Origin: an uncultured Chitinophagales bacterium
Lineage (GTDB): Bacteria > Bacteroidota > Bacteroidia > Chitinophagales > JAHDHT01
Assembly: GCA_938023075.1 (NCBI GenBank)
Contig: CALHDG010000056.1
Coordinates: forward strand, 1 to 62,518
Length of the DNA: 62,518 nucleotides
Direction of reading: 5' to 3'
The notes beneath the pieces were generated by a model, which saw only the letters and a program-made list of their open reading frames with translations, was not told where the DNA came from and made no database searches. The position numbers and the translations under genes are program-made. Below are positions 13,392-62,123 of the stretch, in pieces (position 1 is the first letter of the stretch; the number at the start of each line of letters is the position of its first letter).

Positions 13392-13547
13392 GGAATGATG
13401 AGAATAAATTTACCATCTATGATAAAGGATTTTTTTGATAAACGAGGTGAAAAAAGCAATCTTAGTGGGGAACCAAGACGAGGCTTTTCAATGAAGTATA
13501 TCGAAAAATTGCAAAGTCAGAATGTAAATTTATTTTTTTCTCATTCC
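13392..13547 (+). mobile_element. R4 element, copy 1 (156 bp)
   Basis: The ends are inverted repeats, GGAATGATGAGAA and TTTTTTCTCATTCC. A TTA trinucleotide flanks both sides (13389-13391 and 13548-13550), consistent with a 3-bp target duplication. A 70-codon ORF across it is not conserved in the other copies and is not a gene. Confidence 0.75.
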
Positions 13548-21712: not shown

Positions 21713-21868
21713 GGAATGAGAAAAAATAACTTTACATGCTGACTTTGCAATTTTATGATATACTTCTTTGAAAAGCCTCGTATTAGTTCCCCATTAAACC
21801 TTCGTTTTAGCCTCGTCTATCAAAAAATTGCTTTATCAAAGATGGTAAATATATTTTCTCATCATTCC
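21713..21868 (-). mobile_element. R4 element, copy 2 (156 bp, inverted)
   Basis: It has the same 156-bp length as copy 1 and an obvious base-by-base match when reverse-complemented, including GGAATGATGAGAA, TTTACCATCT, TTTTTTGATA and CGAGGCTTTTCA. Flanking trinucleotides are TTA and TCA, so any duplication has decayed. It fills half of the 316-bp gap between trxA and trpB. Confidence 0.75.
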
Positions 21869-41316: not shown

Positions 41317-42633
41317 GTGAAAATAAAGTCATTTAAAATTGAAAATATTGGTAAATTTTCAGACTTAGAAATAAATTTTTCTAAAAATGATCATATTGAT
41401 AACCATATTGTAATAATTGGAAATAATGGATCTGGGAAAACAACTATTCTTGAATCTATAGCTTTATCTCTTAGTTGGTTTGTTGCCAAAGTAAAGAGTG
41501 CCAAAAGTAGCGGTACGGCAATTCAAGAATTAAAAGTAAAAAACGACTCGCCGAGTGGAAATATTCAGATTGTGGTCAATAATTATGATAAAGATTTTAG
41601 CTGGACTTTAGCAAAAGCAAAAAGGGGTCGGAAAAACGGAACACGTACTAATTTGGACGGGCTAAATAAGTTGGTTGACATTTACAGAACCAATTATACA
41701 AATAATGATTTTACCTCATTTCCTGTATTAACTTATTATGATGCAAATAGAGGCGTATTGGATATACCCTTGCGTATCCGAACGAAGCATAATTTTGAAC
41801 AATTAGACGGTTATCATAATTCTTTAAAAGGCATAGTTGATTATAGGACTTTTTTTGAATGGTTTAGGCAGCGAGAAGATGAAGAGAATGAAGATAAAAT
41901 CAAACTATTAGATTCTTTCAAAACAAAAAATGTAGCTGATTCTAAAATATTGGCGCAAGTTAACAAAGTTGCCGACAAACAATTGGATTGTGTAAGGAAA
42001 GCCATATCTACTTTTTTACCTGAATTTAGCAATATTAGAGTTGAAAGAAAACCAAGATTGCATTTAGCAGTAAATAAAAATGGTAAAAAACTAAATTTAG
42101 AGCAATTATCTCAAGGCGAAAAATTAACAATGGCTATGGTAGGTGATATAGCCAGGCGACTTTCTATTCAGTACCCAAGTTTAACTAACCCTTTAAATGG
42201 TGAAGGAATTATTTTAATTGATGAGGCAGAGTTACATATGCACCCAAAATGGCAAAGGAAGTTAGTGAAAAGATTAAATGAAACTTTTCCAAAATGTCAA
42301 TTTATTTATTCTACTCATTCTCCTCTTTTGATAAGTGATTTTAAGGATGTAAAATGTTACTCCTTAAACGATGAATTACTAATTCCTGTAAATCAATTAT
42401 ATGGTTTAGATGTTAATCAGGTATTGTTAGAAGCTATGGATACAAATATTAGAAATGTTGAGGTTCAAGCAATTGTTGATGATTTTAGAGATTCAATATC
42501 TTCAAAAAATATTAACAAAGCCAATCAATTACTGAAAAATTTAAATGAACACCTACCAGAAAATCATATTGAAATGATTAAATCGAGATTGTTGATTAAA
42601 AAATTGCATATAGCAAATGAGAAAAATCAATAA
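41317..42633 (+). CDS. ptuA: Septu-like defence ATPase PtuA (AAA/SMC-type)
   Basis: Starting at GTG 41317 the protein is 438 residues, opening MKIKSFKIENIGKFSDLEI, the typical strand-forming start of OLD/RecF-like ATPases. Walker A is GNNGSGKTT (35-43), the ABC signature LSQGEK is at 264-269, Walker B ILIDEAELHMHP carries Asp302-Glu303, and the H-loop is YSTHSPLLIS. The frame extends to a TTG at 41251, but that precedes the promoter box. It overlaps a TIGR02646-type HNH gene by 17 bp. This ATPase-HNH pair is the hallmark of Septu (PtuAB) anti-phage systems, in which PtuA assembles with the PtuB nuclease. No retron reverse transcriptase is nearby. Confidence 0.82.
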   Translation: MKIKSFKIENIGKFSDLEINFSKNDHIDNHIVIIGNNGSGKTTILESIALSLSWFVAKVKSAKSSGTAIQELKVKNDSPSGNIQIVVNNYDKDFSWTLAKAKRGRKNGTRTNLDGLNKLVDIYRTNYTNNDFTSFPVLTYYDANRGVLDIPLRIRTKHNFEQLDGYHNSLKGIVDYRTFFEWFRQREDEENEDKIKLLDSFKTKNVADSKILAQVNKVADKQLDCVRKAISTFLPEFSNIRVERKPRLHLAVNKNGKKLNLEQLSQGEKLTMAMVGDIARRLSIQYPSLTNPLNGEGIILIDEAELHMHPKWQRKLVKRLNETFPKCQFIYSTHSPLLISDFKDVKCYSLNDELLIPVNQLYGLDVNQVLLEAMDTNIRNVEVQAIVDDFRDSISSKNINKANQLLKNLNEHLPENHIEMIKSRLLIKKLHIANEKNQ

Positions 42634-51263: not shown

Positions 51264-51647
51264 ATGCAAAACGATACAATATGTTTGCACAAATCTAATA
51301 AACACGTTTGGTTGCCGCTTAAATCTTACAAAGCAAAAGTGCCGGTAAACAAAATAATACGATTAGAAGCACACTCCAACTACACCAGATTTTACGTTAA
51401 AGACCAACAAGATTTAATCATTGCCTCAAAAACATTAAAATATTATCAAGAAAAACTTGAAGATCAACAATTCATCAGACCACATCAGTCGCATTTGGTA
51501 AACCTGGCTTACATTGCAAATTACTCTACTCAAAATGGAGGTTGTTTAATATTAAAAGATCAAACCAAAATTGAGATTTCACGCCGGAAAAAAAGAGCCG
51601 TTTTGAATAAGCTGCTCATTTCGCCATTTCATAAAACACCTATTTAA
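51264..51647 (+). CDS. Orphan LytTR DNA-binding protein
   Basis: The 127-residue protein is nearly all LytTR domain: VPVNKIIRLEAHSNYTRFYV, IIASKTLKYYQEKLEDQQFI, RPHQSHLVNLAYI and LKDQTKIEISRRKKRAVLNKL. LytTR proteins bind paired direct repeats upstream of target genes and often control extracellular peptides, toxins or quorum-sensing loci. It lacks a receiver domain, so phosphorylation control is not expected through this protein. A 99-residue secreted or membrane protein gene follows 65 bp downstream, and a peptide-export locus lies 2 kb further on the same strand. Confidence 0.88.
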   Translation: MQNDTICLHKSNKHVWLPLKSYKAKVPVNKIIRLEAHSNYTRFYVKDQQDLIIASKTLKYYQEKLEDQQFIRPHQSHLVNLAYIANYSTQNGGCLILKDQTKIEISRRKKRAVLNKLLISPFHKTPI

Positions 51648-52284: not shown

Positions 52285-52748
52285 TTTAAGGCGTTGCTTG
52301 TTATGGTGTTTTTAATAAAATTATGGCAGATTTTAAACCTCTGATTCAACAGCATTAACTTTTTAAAGTTAAAATATATTAAAGTTGCTAAAATCCTTAT
52401 AAATACCGGCTTATGTGAATATTAATTATGCAACTTTCATAAAAATCACTTAAATTTGATAAACAACAAAAGATATTTTAGATGAGAAACAACGTAATTA
52501 TATTAATAGAAATTGAGCCTGAATAGCTGCTCTTTTCTACATCAATTAACATTTATTTTTTTCAAATTATTTAATTTATTAATGCTCTTTATATTAAAGC
52601 TCTTCTCTTAAGGAGTTTAAAATAATTTTTTTTGTGTTAGTACGTAATATAGATGTATTTCTTTCTAAAGCAAACTTATTTAGGAACATTGATTAGTTTT
52701 TTGAGTTTACTTCCCTTTCCATAATGTTTTATTTGTTATGATGATAAT

Positions 52749-53023: not shown

Positions 53024-53195
53024 TGTGATAATGTGACTAATTTCATATTAACACTTGCAGTATATAGCTAAAATATCTGCTATCAAATCAAATATTTATA
53101 TCTTAATTTGCTATTGAAACTTAAGATACTAAGTTTGTGAAACTTCATCTTTCATACATTCATATCAATCGATTAGTCAATTATTGTTTCGCTAT

Positions 53196-53352
53196 GGAAT
53201 GATGAAAAAATACATGTTCAAATTTTAGCAAAGAGATTTTTTGATATACAAGTTAAAAAACGCAGGCTTAGTGGTGCTAAGACGAGTATTTTTAATGAAG
53301 TAGATCGGAAAATCTCAAAAGTAAAAATTGACAGTTGTTTTTGAATTATTCC
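53196..53352 (+). mobile_element. R4 element, copy 3 (157 bp)
   Basis: This is the most diverged of the three R4 copies. It keeps GGAATGATGA at the left, the internal GATTTTTTGATA, TTAGTGG and GACGAG blocks in order, and ATTATTCC at the right. TAT flanks both sides (53193-53195 and 53353-53355), a 3-bp duplication as at copy 1. Confidence 0.6.
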
Positions 53353-53635
53353 TATGGTATGTTAGGAGTATTCTTTTTGTCTAAAAAAACAAAGAAAATA
53401 TTTTATCCAATACCATCATTAATATTGTCATTTTAATATAATTACAAACATATTATATTAATCATATGAATTATTTTCGCAAGAAAATTGCTGTTTTTTG
53501 TCCATGAATACTTTATTTATTGCTTTTACTTTTGATGAAGAATTTAAGAATTCATCCAATTCAGGAAGCAGCCGAAAATCCTGTCTTTCGAGACGAACAA
53601 AGCGAGTAGGCATAACCTTTTAATTATTTTTAATT

Positions 53636-53698
53636 ATGAGCGCAATTAAAAATTTGAACACTGTTGAAGGTGGTCCAATTGAATTAGTTGAATTTTAG
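53636..53698 (+). CDS. Candidate 20-residue Gly-Gly leader peptide
   Basis: The ORF ATG 53636 to TAG 53696-53698 encodes MSAIKNLNTVEGG followed by PIELVEF. A Gly-Gly preceded by hydrophobic positions is the cleavage signal recognised by C39-peptidase ABC exporters, and such an exporter begins 190 bp downstream on the same strand. A core of only seven residues (PIELVEF) is unusually short, so it could be a tiny signalling peptide, the stub of a truncated bacteriocin precursor, or chance. A hairpin follows the ORF, as often found between precursor and transporter genes. Recognition is by position and motif only. Confidence 0.45.
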   Translation: MSAIKNLNTVEGGPIELVEF

Positions 53699-53723
53699 AT
53701 TAATTCAGTAACATTTTAAAACT

Positions 53724-53764
53724 TGAAGTGGAAGGTATACAATCAACCATGGGTTTCCACTTCA
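53724..53764 (+). terminator. Hairpin between peptide ORF and exporter (possible attenuator)
   Basis: TGAAGTGGAA (53724-53733) pairs perfectly with TTCCACTTCA (53755-53764), followed by a weak T-rich tail (TTTTAAAAT). Partial termination here would make more peptide mRNA than exporter mRNA. Confidence 0.6.
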
Positions 53765-53890
53765 TTTTAAAATAGATTTAAGAACAAGTGCTCTTTCGCA
53801 TCTAACAAAAATCACCTACCTTTGAATTAGAAACTATAAACATATTAATTTATTCAATCAAATAAGAAGCAACAAAATAAAGTTCTCCCT

Positions 53891-56065
53891 TTGAAAAAAC
53901 CATTTCCCTTTATTAAACAAGCCGGCATGATGGAATGCGGCACCACTTGCCTTGCCATGATTTTTAAGCATTATGGCTACTATAACATATCAGAGGTGTT
54001 GACAAGAGTATGCAATGTAAGTAAGCAAGGCACCAATTTGCAAATGTAGTCCGATGCAGCCGAGCAATGTGGTTTTACGCCAGAGGCTTATCAAATAGAA
54101 TACAAATATTTTTTAGAAATTACTTTGCCTTGTATTGCCCATTACGAAGGTAATCATTTTATTGTTGTGTACAAGGCAACTAAAAACCACGTTTGGGTAG
54201 CTGACACCGCTTTTGGAAAAGATAAAATACCAAGAGTAATTTTTGAAAAGAAATGGAATGGCATTGTACTAGTGTTGAAACCAGGTCCTGATATTTTCAA
54301 AAACAAAGATATGGAAGACTTGGTGCAGCATTTCCGACAGAAAAAAAAATCGTTGTATAGCCAATTTTACCAGCCTGCTATTCAGCCATTTAAGAAAGTA
54401 ATTTTTGAAATATTATTGGCTACCTTTATACTACAACTATTGGGTTTGGCTTTACCCTTTTTTACCAAAACTATTGTAGATAGTGTGTTGGTCAATTCAA
54501 ACATCAAATTACTCTACGGCATTCTGGGTGGATTAATTGGAGTATTTTTATTGCAAATATTATTGCTTTATGTACGTAACATTTTACTGGTGCAAAGTAA
54601 AGTGGGTTTTGAGTTGGAGTTTTTTAGCCGCTTTTTTCAACACTTCATCCGCCTAAAACAAAGCTATTACGATAACCATAAACGCGAAGATTTTATGGCG
54701 CGTTTTCGGCTTAATTTGCGTATTCGGCAATTGGCAAATCCGGTATTGGTAAAAAATGCGGTAGACTTATTATTTATACTTGGTTACATCCCTTTACTGT
54801 TTTTCTTCAATGTAAAATTGGGTTTCCTTGCGTTAATCTTTTCCAGCATTTACTTGTTACTCACTTTATATTTCACACCTATTATTATTCATTTATTAGA
54901 TAAAATATTTTATAAAGATGCTGGCGTATTAGGCAAATTTTTAGATGCTTTGTTGGGCATTAAATCAGTAAAATTATTAGGTGTGGAACGCGACAAATAT
55001 TGGAAATGGCGCAATGAATACAAACGAAATTTAAATGTAGTGTTAGATGCCGAAACAACAGAAATCAATTTATCTTCTTTTCAATATAGCGTGTATTACT
55101 TCAGTCAGGTAGCTATTTATTGGTTTGGTGCTTATCTGGTTTTTAATAAAGAAATTTCTTTAGGAGAGTATCTTGCCTTCATCACTATTTTTATGATTAT
55201 TATGAATGCGCTGAATAGTGTATCTATTTTATGGAAGAGTTTAACCAGCCTTAAAGTATCATTAGATCGAATTAATGATGTACTAATTGAAGAACCCGAA
55301 ATTGAAATGAATAGGCTGCAAGTACCTAAAATTAATCGCTTAACTTTTGAAGAGATTTATTTTAAATATAATGAACAACAACCTAAACATATTTTAAACG
55401 GTTTAAATCTAACTATTGAAGCTGGCGAAAAAATTGGTATCGTAGGTAGAAATGGTGCCGGTAAATCTACCTTAGTGAAACTGATGGTTAATTTTTACGA
55501 TCATTACAAAGGTAATATATTAATTAATGATACAGAGTTAAGGGAGTTTGATGTAAGTGCTTTACGCCGAAAGGTGTTTTTGTTTCCACAAGACATTTAT
55601 TTGTTTAACGGCACTATTAAAGAAAATATTTTATTTGCCAATCCATCTGCCAGTATCGAAGAGGTAATTATTGCCGCCAAAAAAGCTGATTTGCATGATT
55701 ATGTAAAAACCTTGCATCTCGGTTATAATCAAATGATTGGCAATGTCGGAGCTGGTTTATCCGGTGGGCAAAAATTAAAAATTGGTTTTGCCCGTTTGTT
55801 CATTGCCAATCCTGAGGTGATCATTTTAGATGAAGCCAGTAGTCAGTTAGATGTAGAAACCGAAAAGAAAATTATAGAAGCCATTAATGAAACCTATCGT
55901 GATAAAACGATTATTTCGATTGCGCACCGGGTTCATACCTTAAAAAATTCTGATCGAATTTTAGTAATAGATGAAGGTAAGATTGCCGAAGCAGGTACGC
56001 ATTTTGAGTTGATGGAGTTAGATGGGATTTATGCGAGCTTTTTGAATACTTATGTTAATTTTTAA
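53891..56065 (+). pseudogene. C39-peptidase ABC exporter interrupted by an in-frame TAG
   Basis: The full frame of 724 codons opens (TTG 53891) KKPFPFIKQAGMMECGTTCL, with catalytic Cys16 of the C39 peptidase, His89 in EGNHFIVVY and Asp105 in VWVADTAFG. A TAG at 54047-54049 (codon 53) interrupts the peptidase domain in the stretch TNLQM-stop-SDAAEQCG; a single-base change from TTG (Leu) would explain it. Downstream, an ORF from TTG 54125 encodes the rest: six membrane helices and the ABC domain with GIVGRNGAGKST (Walker A), LSGGQKLKIGFARL, VIILDEASSQLD and the H-loop IAHR. If TAG is a true stop, peptide cleavage is lost although transport parts remain. The HlyD-type partner follows 10 bp later. 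Confidence 0.85.
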
Positions 56066-56075
56066 ATGATAACTA

Positions 56076-57392
56076 ATGAATAACAACCATACTCCAATTG
56101 ATCATTTTAAAGATTTAGAACCACAACAATACAGTAATATGTATTTTGAATCGGATGTGCCCTTGGCGGATGTGCGTAAAAATGCTTTGCGTGTTTTAAT
56201 TTATGGTTCACTACTAATTGTGGGCATGCTGTTATTTTTGAGCTTTATGATTCACTTTCCGACTGAAATAAATGTGCCCGTCATTATTAAAAATGAAGGT
56301 AAAGAAGAAGTGATTCGATTTCCTTATAATGTATATGTTGATCAGAAATTTGTGAAGGTAAATGATATGGTTAAGAAAGGTGATCCACTAATCAGTATTG
56401 GCGCGCCTCAAATAACTAATTTAATTCAACAAATAGAAAAGGGCAAAGTCAATTTAGATTTGCAAAACACATCAGAAGCACAGGTTTTTCAAGATCAAGT
56501 GAATTTATTAAGATCAGAAACAACCATTTTAGAAAATGAAATAGATGCCATTCAAAAGGAGATCAATGATTTAAAAGACCAACGTAATACGGAATGCGAT
56601 GCACTGCAAAATGTATATTTAAGCAATCTTAAAATATATAAAGTCAAAAAACAAGCATATGAAGCCGGTGCAATAGCCAAAATTGATTATCAAACTGCAG
56701 AAAAGGAAAAAGTACATGCCTTTGATGCCTTGCAAACCAAAATGCGATCATATAAAACCTTAATCAATACTAAAGCCTCAGAAATAGAGGTCATTCAATC
56801 TAAAATTAATCGAAAGAATAAAGAAATTCAAACTATTAGAAGCGAATACAACAGTGCTTATCAAATAGTAGATACTGATTTAAAATTAGCAGAAAATCAG
56901 TTAGCGTATAATTTTGGAGATTATACAGTTGTGGATGGAAAGTTGACTTTGGTAGCGGAGAAAAGTGGCAAGGTCGCTTATTTGTTTGAAGGTGAAAGGG
57001 AATTAAAGAGTGGGCAAATTTTATTAAAAATTCGAAACGACTTACGAGCCTATTATGCACAAGGCGAAGTGCCACCACAAGCTATTGGAAAGTTTAAAGA
57101 AGGGCAAAAAGCAGCTTTAAAAATTACCTCTTTCCCTCATTTTGAATGGGGTGTAATGGAAGGAGAGGTTGCTGTGCTAAGTAAATCGCCCAATGAAAAT
57201 GGTAATTTTTTGATGCGTTTAGACATTAATAATTATGGCAACCTAAAACCTTTAGTACAATTAGGTATGGATGGTATGGCAACTATTTTAATTGAAGAAA
57301 AAAGTTTTGCGTCGCACGTTACACATACCTTAAAACGCAGCTATTACAATTCTACCGAGCTACCAAGCGAAGTTGAACAAGAAAACAACTAA
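56076..57392 (+). CDS. HlyD-family membrane fusion protein
   Basis: The 438-residue adaptor has a short cytoplasmic N-terminus, one membrane helix (about residues 36-60, RVLIYGSLLIVGMLLFLSFMI) and a lipoyl/barrel-sandwich half-motif. A long coiled coil follows (about 110-275, LRSETTILENEIDAIQKEIN), then the second lipoyl half (LTLVAEKSGKVAYLFEGEREL) and a beta-barrel (DLRAYYAQGEVPPQAIGKF). It links the inner-membrane ABC exporter to an outer-membrane channel; a TolC-like protein is not in the window. It is 10 bp downstream of the exporter and intact, suggesting the exporter nonsense is recent. Confidence 0.9.
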   Translation: MNNNHTPIDHFKDLEPQQYSNMYFESDVPLADVRKNALRVLIYGSLLIVGMLLFLSFMIHFPTEINVPVIIKNEGKEEVIRFPYNVYVDQKFVKVNDMVKKGDPLISIGAPQITNLIQQIEKGKVNLDLQNTSEAQVFQDQVNLLRSETTILENEIDAIQKEINDLKDQRNTECDALQNVYLSNLKIYKVKKQAYEAGAIAKIDYQTAEKEKVHAFDALQTKMRSYKTLINTKASEIEVIQSKINRKNKEIQTIRSEYNSAYQIVDTDLKLAENQLAYNFGDYTVVDGKLTLVAEKSGKVAYLFEGERELKSGQILLKIRNDLRAYYAQGEVPPQAIGKFKEGQKAALKITSFPHFEWGVMEGEVAVLSKSPNENGNFLMRLDINNYGNLKPLVQLGMDGMATILIEEKSFASHVTHTLKRSYYNSTELPSEVEQENN

Positions 57393-61950: not shown

Positions 61951-62070
61951 AGAAGCGAAACTGTAGAAACTCGTATAAACTTTTGTCCTGCTATCCGCTC
62001 AAATCCCATTTGGCAAACGCTTCAAAATGCCCTTCTTCAGCAAATGGAATAACCGCTCCTATCAGGGCTA
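61951..62070 (-). repeat. R1 structured repeat, copy 4 (inverted)
   Basis: Read on the minus strand it begins TAGCCCTGATAGGAGCGGTT and ends GGATAGCAGGAC plus TTTCGCTTCT. The outer stem is CCTG/CAGG as in copy 2; the inner stem is ATTCCATTTG with CAAATGGGAT. Confidence 0.8.
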
Positions 62071-62123
62071 AACAGCCAACTTCGCTCGCTCGTAGTTACC
62101 ACACTTTAGTATGGATTCACAAC

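Follow-up and report, generated by a model that had tools for sequence, protein, structure and literature searches.

A putative minimal double-glycine precursor gene with a DUF805b-type RNA and an interrupted C39 exporter in a Chitinophagales bacterium

The window analyzed here, a stretch of 62,518 nucleotides, is contig C56 of the 6.1-Mb genome of an uncultured Chitinophagales bacterium. On its plus strand lie, in this order, a 14-codon ORF, a repeat fragment, an RNA element, a 20-codon ORF, a hairpin, a C39-peptidase ABC exporter frame and an HlyD-family adaptor. The 20-codon ORF (MSAIKNLNTVEGGPIELVEF, 53636-53698) consists of a 13-residue leader, MSAIKNLNTVEGG (53636-53674), a 7-residue core, PIELVEF (53675-53695), and a TAG stop. 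The hairpin between this putative cargo and the exporter has its core at 53724-53764 (+), and A/T pairs lengthen it to 53715-53771 (−15.7 kcal/mol, z −3.7); no T run follows it and no terminator-like site was seen there. The adaptor, a 438-aa open frame at 56076-57392 (+), matches HlyD_3 (1.7e-7) and, below the cut-off of that model, TIGR01843 (7.9e-11). An initial annotation had described the ORF with its VEGG leader end, the hairpin core and an HlyD adaptor after the exporter, and all three hold as described, the hairpin with its extension. A stand-alone LytTR DNA-binding protein is encoded at 51264-51647, about 2 kb upstream of the mini-ORF, as a possible cognate regulator; we recognized no counterpart of it in the orthologous stretches that we read.

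The exporter had been described as a C39-peptidase ABC transporter. Its reading frame (53891-56065, +) and its three domains, Peptidase_C39 (1.7e-30), ABC_membrane and ABC_tran, are present when the frame is read through, but an in-frame stop, TAG at 54047-54049 (codon 53), breaks the frame after 52 codons, inside the C39 domain. Since the TAG separates the Cys motif (MMECGTTC) from the His motif (HFIVV), neither fragment contains a whole peptidase. The three exporter orthologues, in the genomes G098, G694 and G639, all have an uninterrupted frame, with Leu, Leu and Met at the TAG column in a by-eye alignment. In each of them the C39, membrane and ATPase domains of a PCAT reside in one protein, as they do not in the window. 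No other Pfam C39 domain was found in the genome. Unless the TAG results from misassembly, export is therefore broken here: either the system was recently broken or the assembly is wrong at this codon. Recoding of the stop codon is unsupported, there being no internal stop among the other ABC matches listed for the genome.

The RNA element (53563-53611, +) was recognized by a match to half of the Rfam model RF02914 (DUF805b, a cis-regulatory class) and by alignment to the copies in G098 and on contig C11 of the window genome. The AGGA and TCCT strands of its stem (53563-53566 and 53579-53582) pair at 4/4 positions, a pseudoknot joins GCC (53571-53573) to GGC (53609-53611), and an inserted hairpin (GTCT-TTCG-AGAC, 53583-53594) precedes AAAG, making this a long variant. 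With the consensus stem and the pseudoknot, the conserved blocks GAAAA and GAGTAGGC are present. The match scores 17 bits over half the model, below the gathering cut-off of 35.6 bits; the C11 copy, which also has an inserted hairpin, likewise matches half the model (17-18 bits for the two copies), and the G098 and G694 copies exceed the cut-off with 43.0 and 46.2 bits. The window element is of the DUF805b type and is not a member of RF02914 by score. The blocks AGGA, GCC, AAAATCC and GAGTAGGCA are common to the regions upstream of the window ORF, the C11 ORF and the G098 cargo. Among 18 copies, the pseudoknot triplets (GCC/GGC, ACC/GGT, GCU/AGC or GCU/GGC) pair at 54/54 positions, and 0 of 10,000 reshufflings did as well, against a shuffle mean that is already 49.2 and with related copies that are not independent. 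The inserted hairpins of the C11 and C32 copies fold better than shuffled sequences, and those of the window and C216 copies do not.

The window copy shares with DUF805b RNAs the stem, the GCC/GGC pseudoknot, the GAAAA and GAGTAGG blocks and the position just upstream of an ATG, which lies 24 nt past the end of the element. It differs in the hairpin inserted before AAAG, in its sub-cut-off score and in its target, a mini-ORF and not a lipoprotein or secreted-protein gene. Genes of the latter kinds follow most other copies in this genome, G110 and G076, the target ATG usually being 20-35 nt after the element. On contig C32 a hairpin-bearing element has no ATG or ORF at the expected place. A second, 24-codon ORF had been proposed at 53535-53609; it exists as an open frame, but because it overlaps the conserved RNA element it is most likely not a gene. 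Elsewhere, an element with an insert on contig C216 of G000 (42071-42119, L193) stands directly before a T-run hairpin, with only an 11-codon ORF following, and contig C182 of G110 has three DUF805b elements about 1.1 kb apart (L182, L186 and L188), each preceding a member of a single secreted-protein family. A Flavo-1 RNA (RF01705) at 61980-62073 (−) of the window is barely over its cut-off. A literature search of limited scope returned nothing on DUF805b, nor on Hint domains with double-glycine leaders, and is not evidence of absence.

Several ORFs of 14 to 24 codons in the genome are likely mini-genes; two have a Gly-Gly export leader, with cores of 7 or 11 residues. The paralogue of the window ORF, MYEIKNLNTVEGGAGIIVIVDPVF on contig C11, has the leader MYEIKNLNTVEGG, which also ends in Gly-Gly, and the 11-residue core AGIIVIVDPVF. 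Over the 13 leader codons, 34/39 bases are identical between the two; three of the differences, in codons 2-3, alter residues and the two later ones are synonymous, leaving the last 10 leader codons unchanged in amino acid sequence, and the cores differ. The C11 ORF has its own DUF805b-type RNA, 23 nt before the ATG, and stands alone as a unit with no exporter nearby. By protein, a search with the 20-residue query recovers it at E 0.28 only. Peptide matches outside this genome, in 199 genomes of the order, fell inside long frames, in a different reading frame of a gene or across an internal stop, and were dismissed as chance.

The 14-codon ORF of the window (MRNNVIILIEIEPE, 52482-52526, +) lacks GG and is related to the C-terminal 14 codons of a mini-ORF on contig C106 (MKNNVIILIEIEPE; L102, − strand). 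The two regions are 82% identical over 92 nt (blastn, E 3e-19), and within the ORF the differences amount to one K/R substitution, a pair of synonymous changes and TAA versus TAG as the stop. On C106, a DUF805b-type element is followed by MNQTKGISMKNNVIILIEIEPE, a 14-22-codon ORF, and a hairpin with a T run; no recognizable DUF805b element stands in front of the 52482-52526 ORF. Both ORFs have Asn-Asn where GG would stand, which counts against a pure export reading; the mini-ORF family may not depend on GG. The repeat fragment at 53188-53354 (+) has an inverted counterpart of 93% identity next to the C106 mini-ORF and weaker copies (about 75%) at 13393-13537 and 21722-21867 of the window, and is possibly the remnant of a mobile element.

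About 790 genomes, in overlapping draws, yielded the three exporter orthologues, a small sample. The nearest genome, G001 (same family, 83% complete), has none, and no further close orthologue was found in the families of G098 or the order of G694. A scan of wider genome contigs returned mostly ATPase-domain matches besides the G098 contig, and viral contigs returned no match. G098, from the same taxonomic order as the window genome, has in sequence a DUF805b element, a 180-residue protein with a GG leader and a Hint domain (GG-Hint), a hairpin, an exporter 59% identical to the aligned part of the window exporter, and HlyD. The leader of its cargo ends NCLKSIYGG and is followed by PIDPFALIDG and then by the Hint domain from CFEEG. 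In G694 the order is DUF805b, a 190-residue GG-Hint protein (51% identical to that of G098, with VIIIQDIVIDG before Hint), a 40-residue precursor with the leader end MRTVKGG and the core GPIITEDIVF, a hairpin, the exporter and HlyD. In G639, where no DUF805b match was found at E 0.01, a 47-residue precursor (LKKIKGG, then the core QTPTHRVNYAKGKGAIA) precedes the exporter and HlyD. Taken together, the orthologous loci indicate a module of RNA, GG cargo, hairpin, C39 exporter and HlyD that is represented in four Bacteroidota; in G098 and G694 a similar 10-11-residue segment stands before Hint. By eye, the mini-cores resemble these segments (PIITEDIV and VIIIQDIV; GGPIE and GGPID), a suggestive likeness.

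For the G098 and G694 cargo, the Hint assignment is based on TIGR01445, matched above cut-off, together with Pfam matches short of their cut-offs and weak similarity to PDB 2lwy; a single-sequence structure prediction of the G098 protein gave no usable model (pLDDT 33). Like Hint and other bacterial intein-like domains, both proteins have a CFEE[GS]TL start and a TDNHPF motif; they differ in standing behind a GG leader and a 10-11-residue segment, and no C-terminal His-Asn, usual in such domains, was seen. The window genome has no Hint homologue at E 0.001.

Residues −4, −7 and −12 of C39 substrate leaders are hydrophobic by rule, and the LahT co-crystal shows leader residues −4 and −7 (PMC6363468). 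The window leader, with V at −4 and L at −7, matches the latter two, and its Ser at −12 is not hydrophobic; the residue there is Tyr in C11 and Leu or Ile in the orthologous precursors. The C11 paralogue, the short precursors of G694 and G639 and V−4/L−7 argue for a very small GG-leader gene beside a C39 exporter. That much of the initial proposal is supported; a working minimal export system in this genome is not, given the TAG in the peptidase domain. Short GG ORFs upstream of orthologous exporters, suggested as a check, occur in G694 and G639, and G098 has only its 180-residue GG-Hint protein. A longer precursor in relatives, which was to have marked the ORF as a truncated stub, is found in part: G098 and G694 have GG-Hint proteins, and G694 also has a separate short precursor.

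ORFs consisting of a leader, [VIL]xGG, 5-20 residues and a stop numbered 15, a density of about 1 per 150 kb, in the 2.2 Mb of strand-bases covered (loci examined, some redundant). Such an ORF lies within 1 kb upstream of 3/4 exporters of this subfamily (window included) and of 0/28 other C39 exporters, a contrast that is an upper estimate, biased upward, because the pattern was written after members had been seen; its leader length was loosened once, since the first version missed the window ORF. The C11 paralogue, which agrees with the window ORF in leader and upstream RNA, does not depend on this pattern.

The 20-codon ORF is very probably a real gene. That it is merely a chance open frame near an exporter might be supposed from its length and from the little statistical weight of a 20-residue query, which finds its paralogue at E 0.28 by protein, but the paralogue at the DNA level, the RNA context and spacing, the low background rate and the orthologous short GG precursors make this highly improbable. 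We lean, with some reserve, toward a tiny double-glycine precursor controlled by the RNA within an RNA/cargo/exporter module. The TAG in the exporter, Ser at −12 of the leader, the two Asn-Asn mini-ORFs and the low score of the window RNA weigh against this reading. The RNA element, the paralogue, the conserved order and the stop codon are features of the sequences themselves; the PIELVEF peptide would be translated, exported, cleaved and used in signaling or competition.

The ORF could instead be the leftover of a GG-Hint precursor minus its Hint domain, beside an exporter that is already a pseudogene, so that neither works now. GG-Hint cargo at the equivalent place in G098 and G694, the GGPI[DE] common to the window ORF and G098, the TAG in the exporter and the genome without a Hint homologue are all consistent with such decay. 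Set against this, the C11 copy is just as short, with only synonymous differences in its leader after codon 3, the short GG precursor of G694 adjoins a GG-Hint gene and an exporter frame that are both intact, and no Hint remnant is recognizable after the window ORF; we consider decay unlikely, if deserving of some weight. It is improbable that the mini-ORFs are peptides or mere tails of small intracellular regulatory transcripts (DUF805b-type RNA, ORF and terminator) whose Gly-Gly has no role in export: short GG precursors or GG-Hint cargo are kept directly upstream of orthologous exporters, and hydrophobic −4 and −7 residues fit C39 recognition, even though the C106 unit has element, ORF and T-run hairpin without GG, the C11 unit is without an exporter and the C32 element is without an ORF at the expected place.

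If the window ORF is a double-glycine precursor, the DUF805b-type RNA on the mRNA presumably controls cargo expression, and read-through from the cargo into the exporter genes may be restrained by the hairpin. The 13-residue leader would dock, as a recognition signal, on the C39 domain of the neighboring exporter, which would cut after Gly-Gly, and the 7-residue acidic, hydrophobic core would leave through the ABC transporter, HlyD and an outer-membrane channel. A further step, release or transfer of the short segment by the Hint domain, is conceivable in G098 and G694. In the window genome this path would be blocked if the TAG is real. A broader and doubtful proposal gives peptides of one kind, acidic, hydrophobic and 7-11 residues long, two routes of synthesis: mini-ORFs of 20-40 codons would encode them directly, or they would lie between GG leader and Hint and be freed or attached elsewhere by the Hint domain after C39 cleavage. 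Both routes would mostly be governed by DUF805b-type RNAs.

To our knowledge, exported peptides of this size have been little described outside Gram-positive bacteria, and genes of such length are easily overlooked by gene finders. A GG leader, a free or Hint-fused core of 7-11 residues and a DUF805b-type RNA together provide a search pattern for such genes, and the orphan RNA class DUF805b gains a small, testable target set.

The nearest known systems are the PCAT/AMS C39 systems with double-glycine peptides, such as LahT and the microcin V exporter CvaB, with a 15-residue leader (PMC6363468, PMC10231218). The locus shares with them the C39-TMD-NBD architecture, an HlyD partner and a cargo gene upstream of the exporter, and the window leader shares GG at −1/−2 and hydrophobic residues at −4 and −7. 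It differs from them in a core of only 7 or 11 residues and a leader of only 13, and, in the window, in a −12 residue that is not hydrophobic, a DUF805b-type RNA upstream and an interrupted exporter frame.
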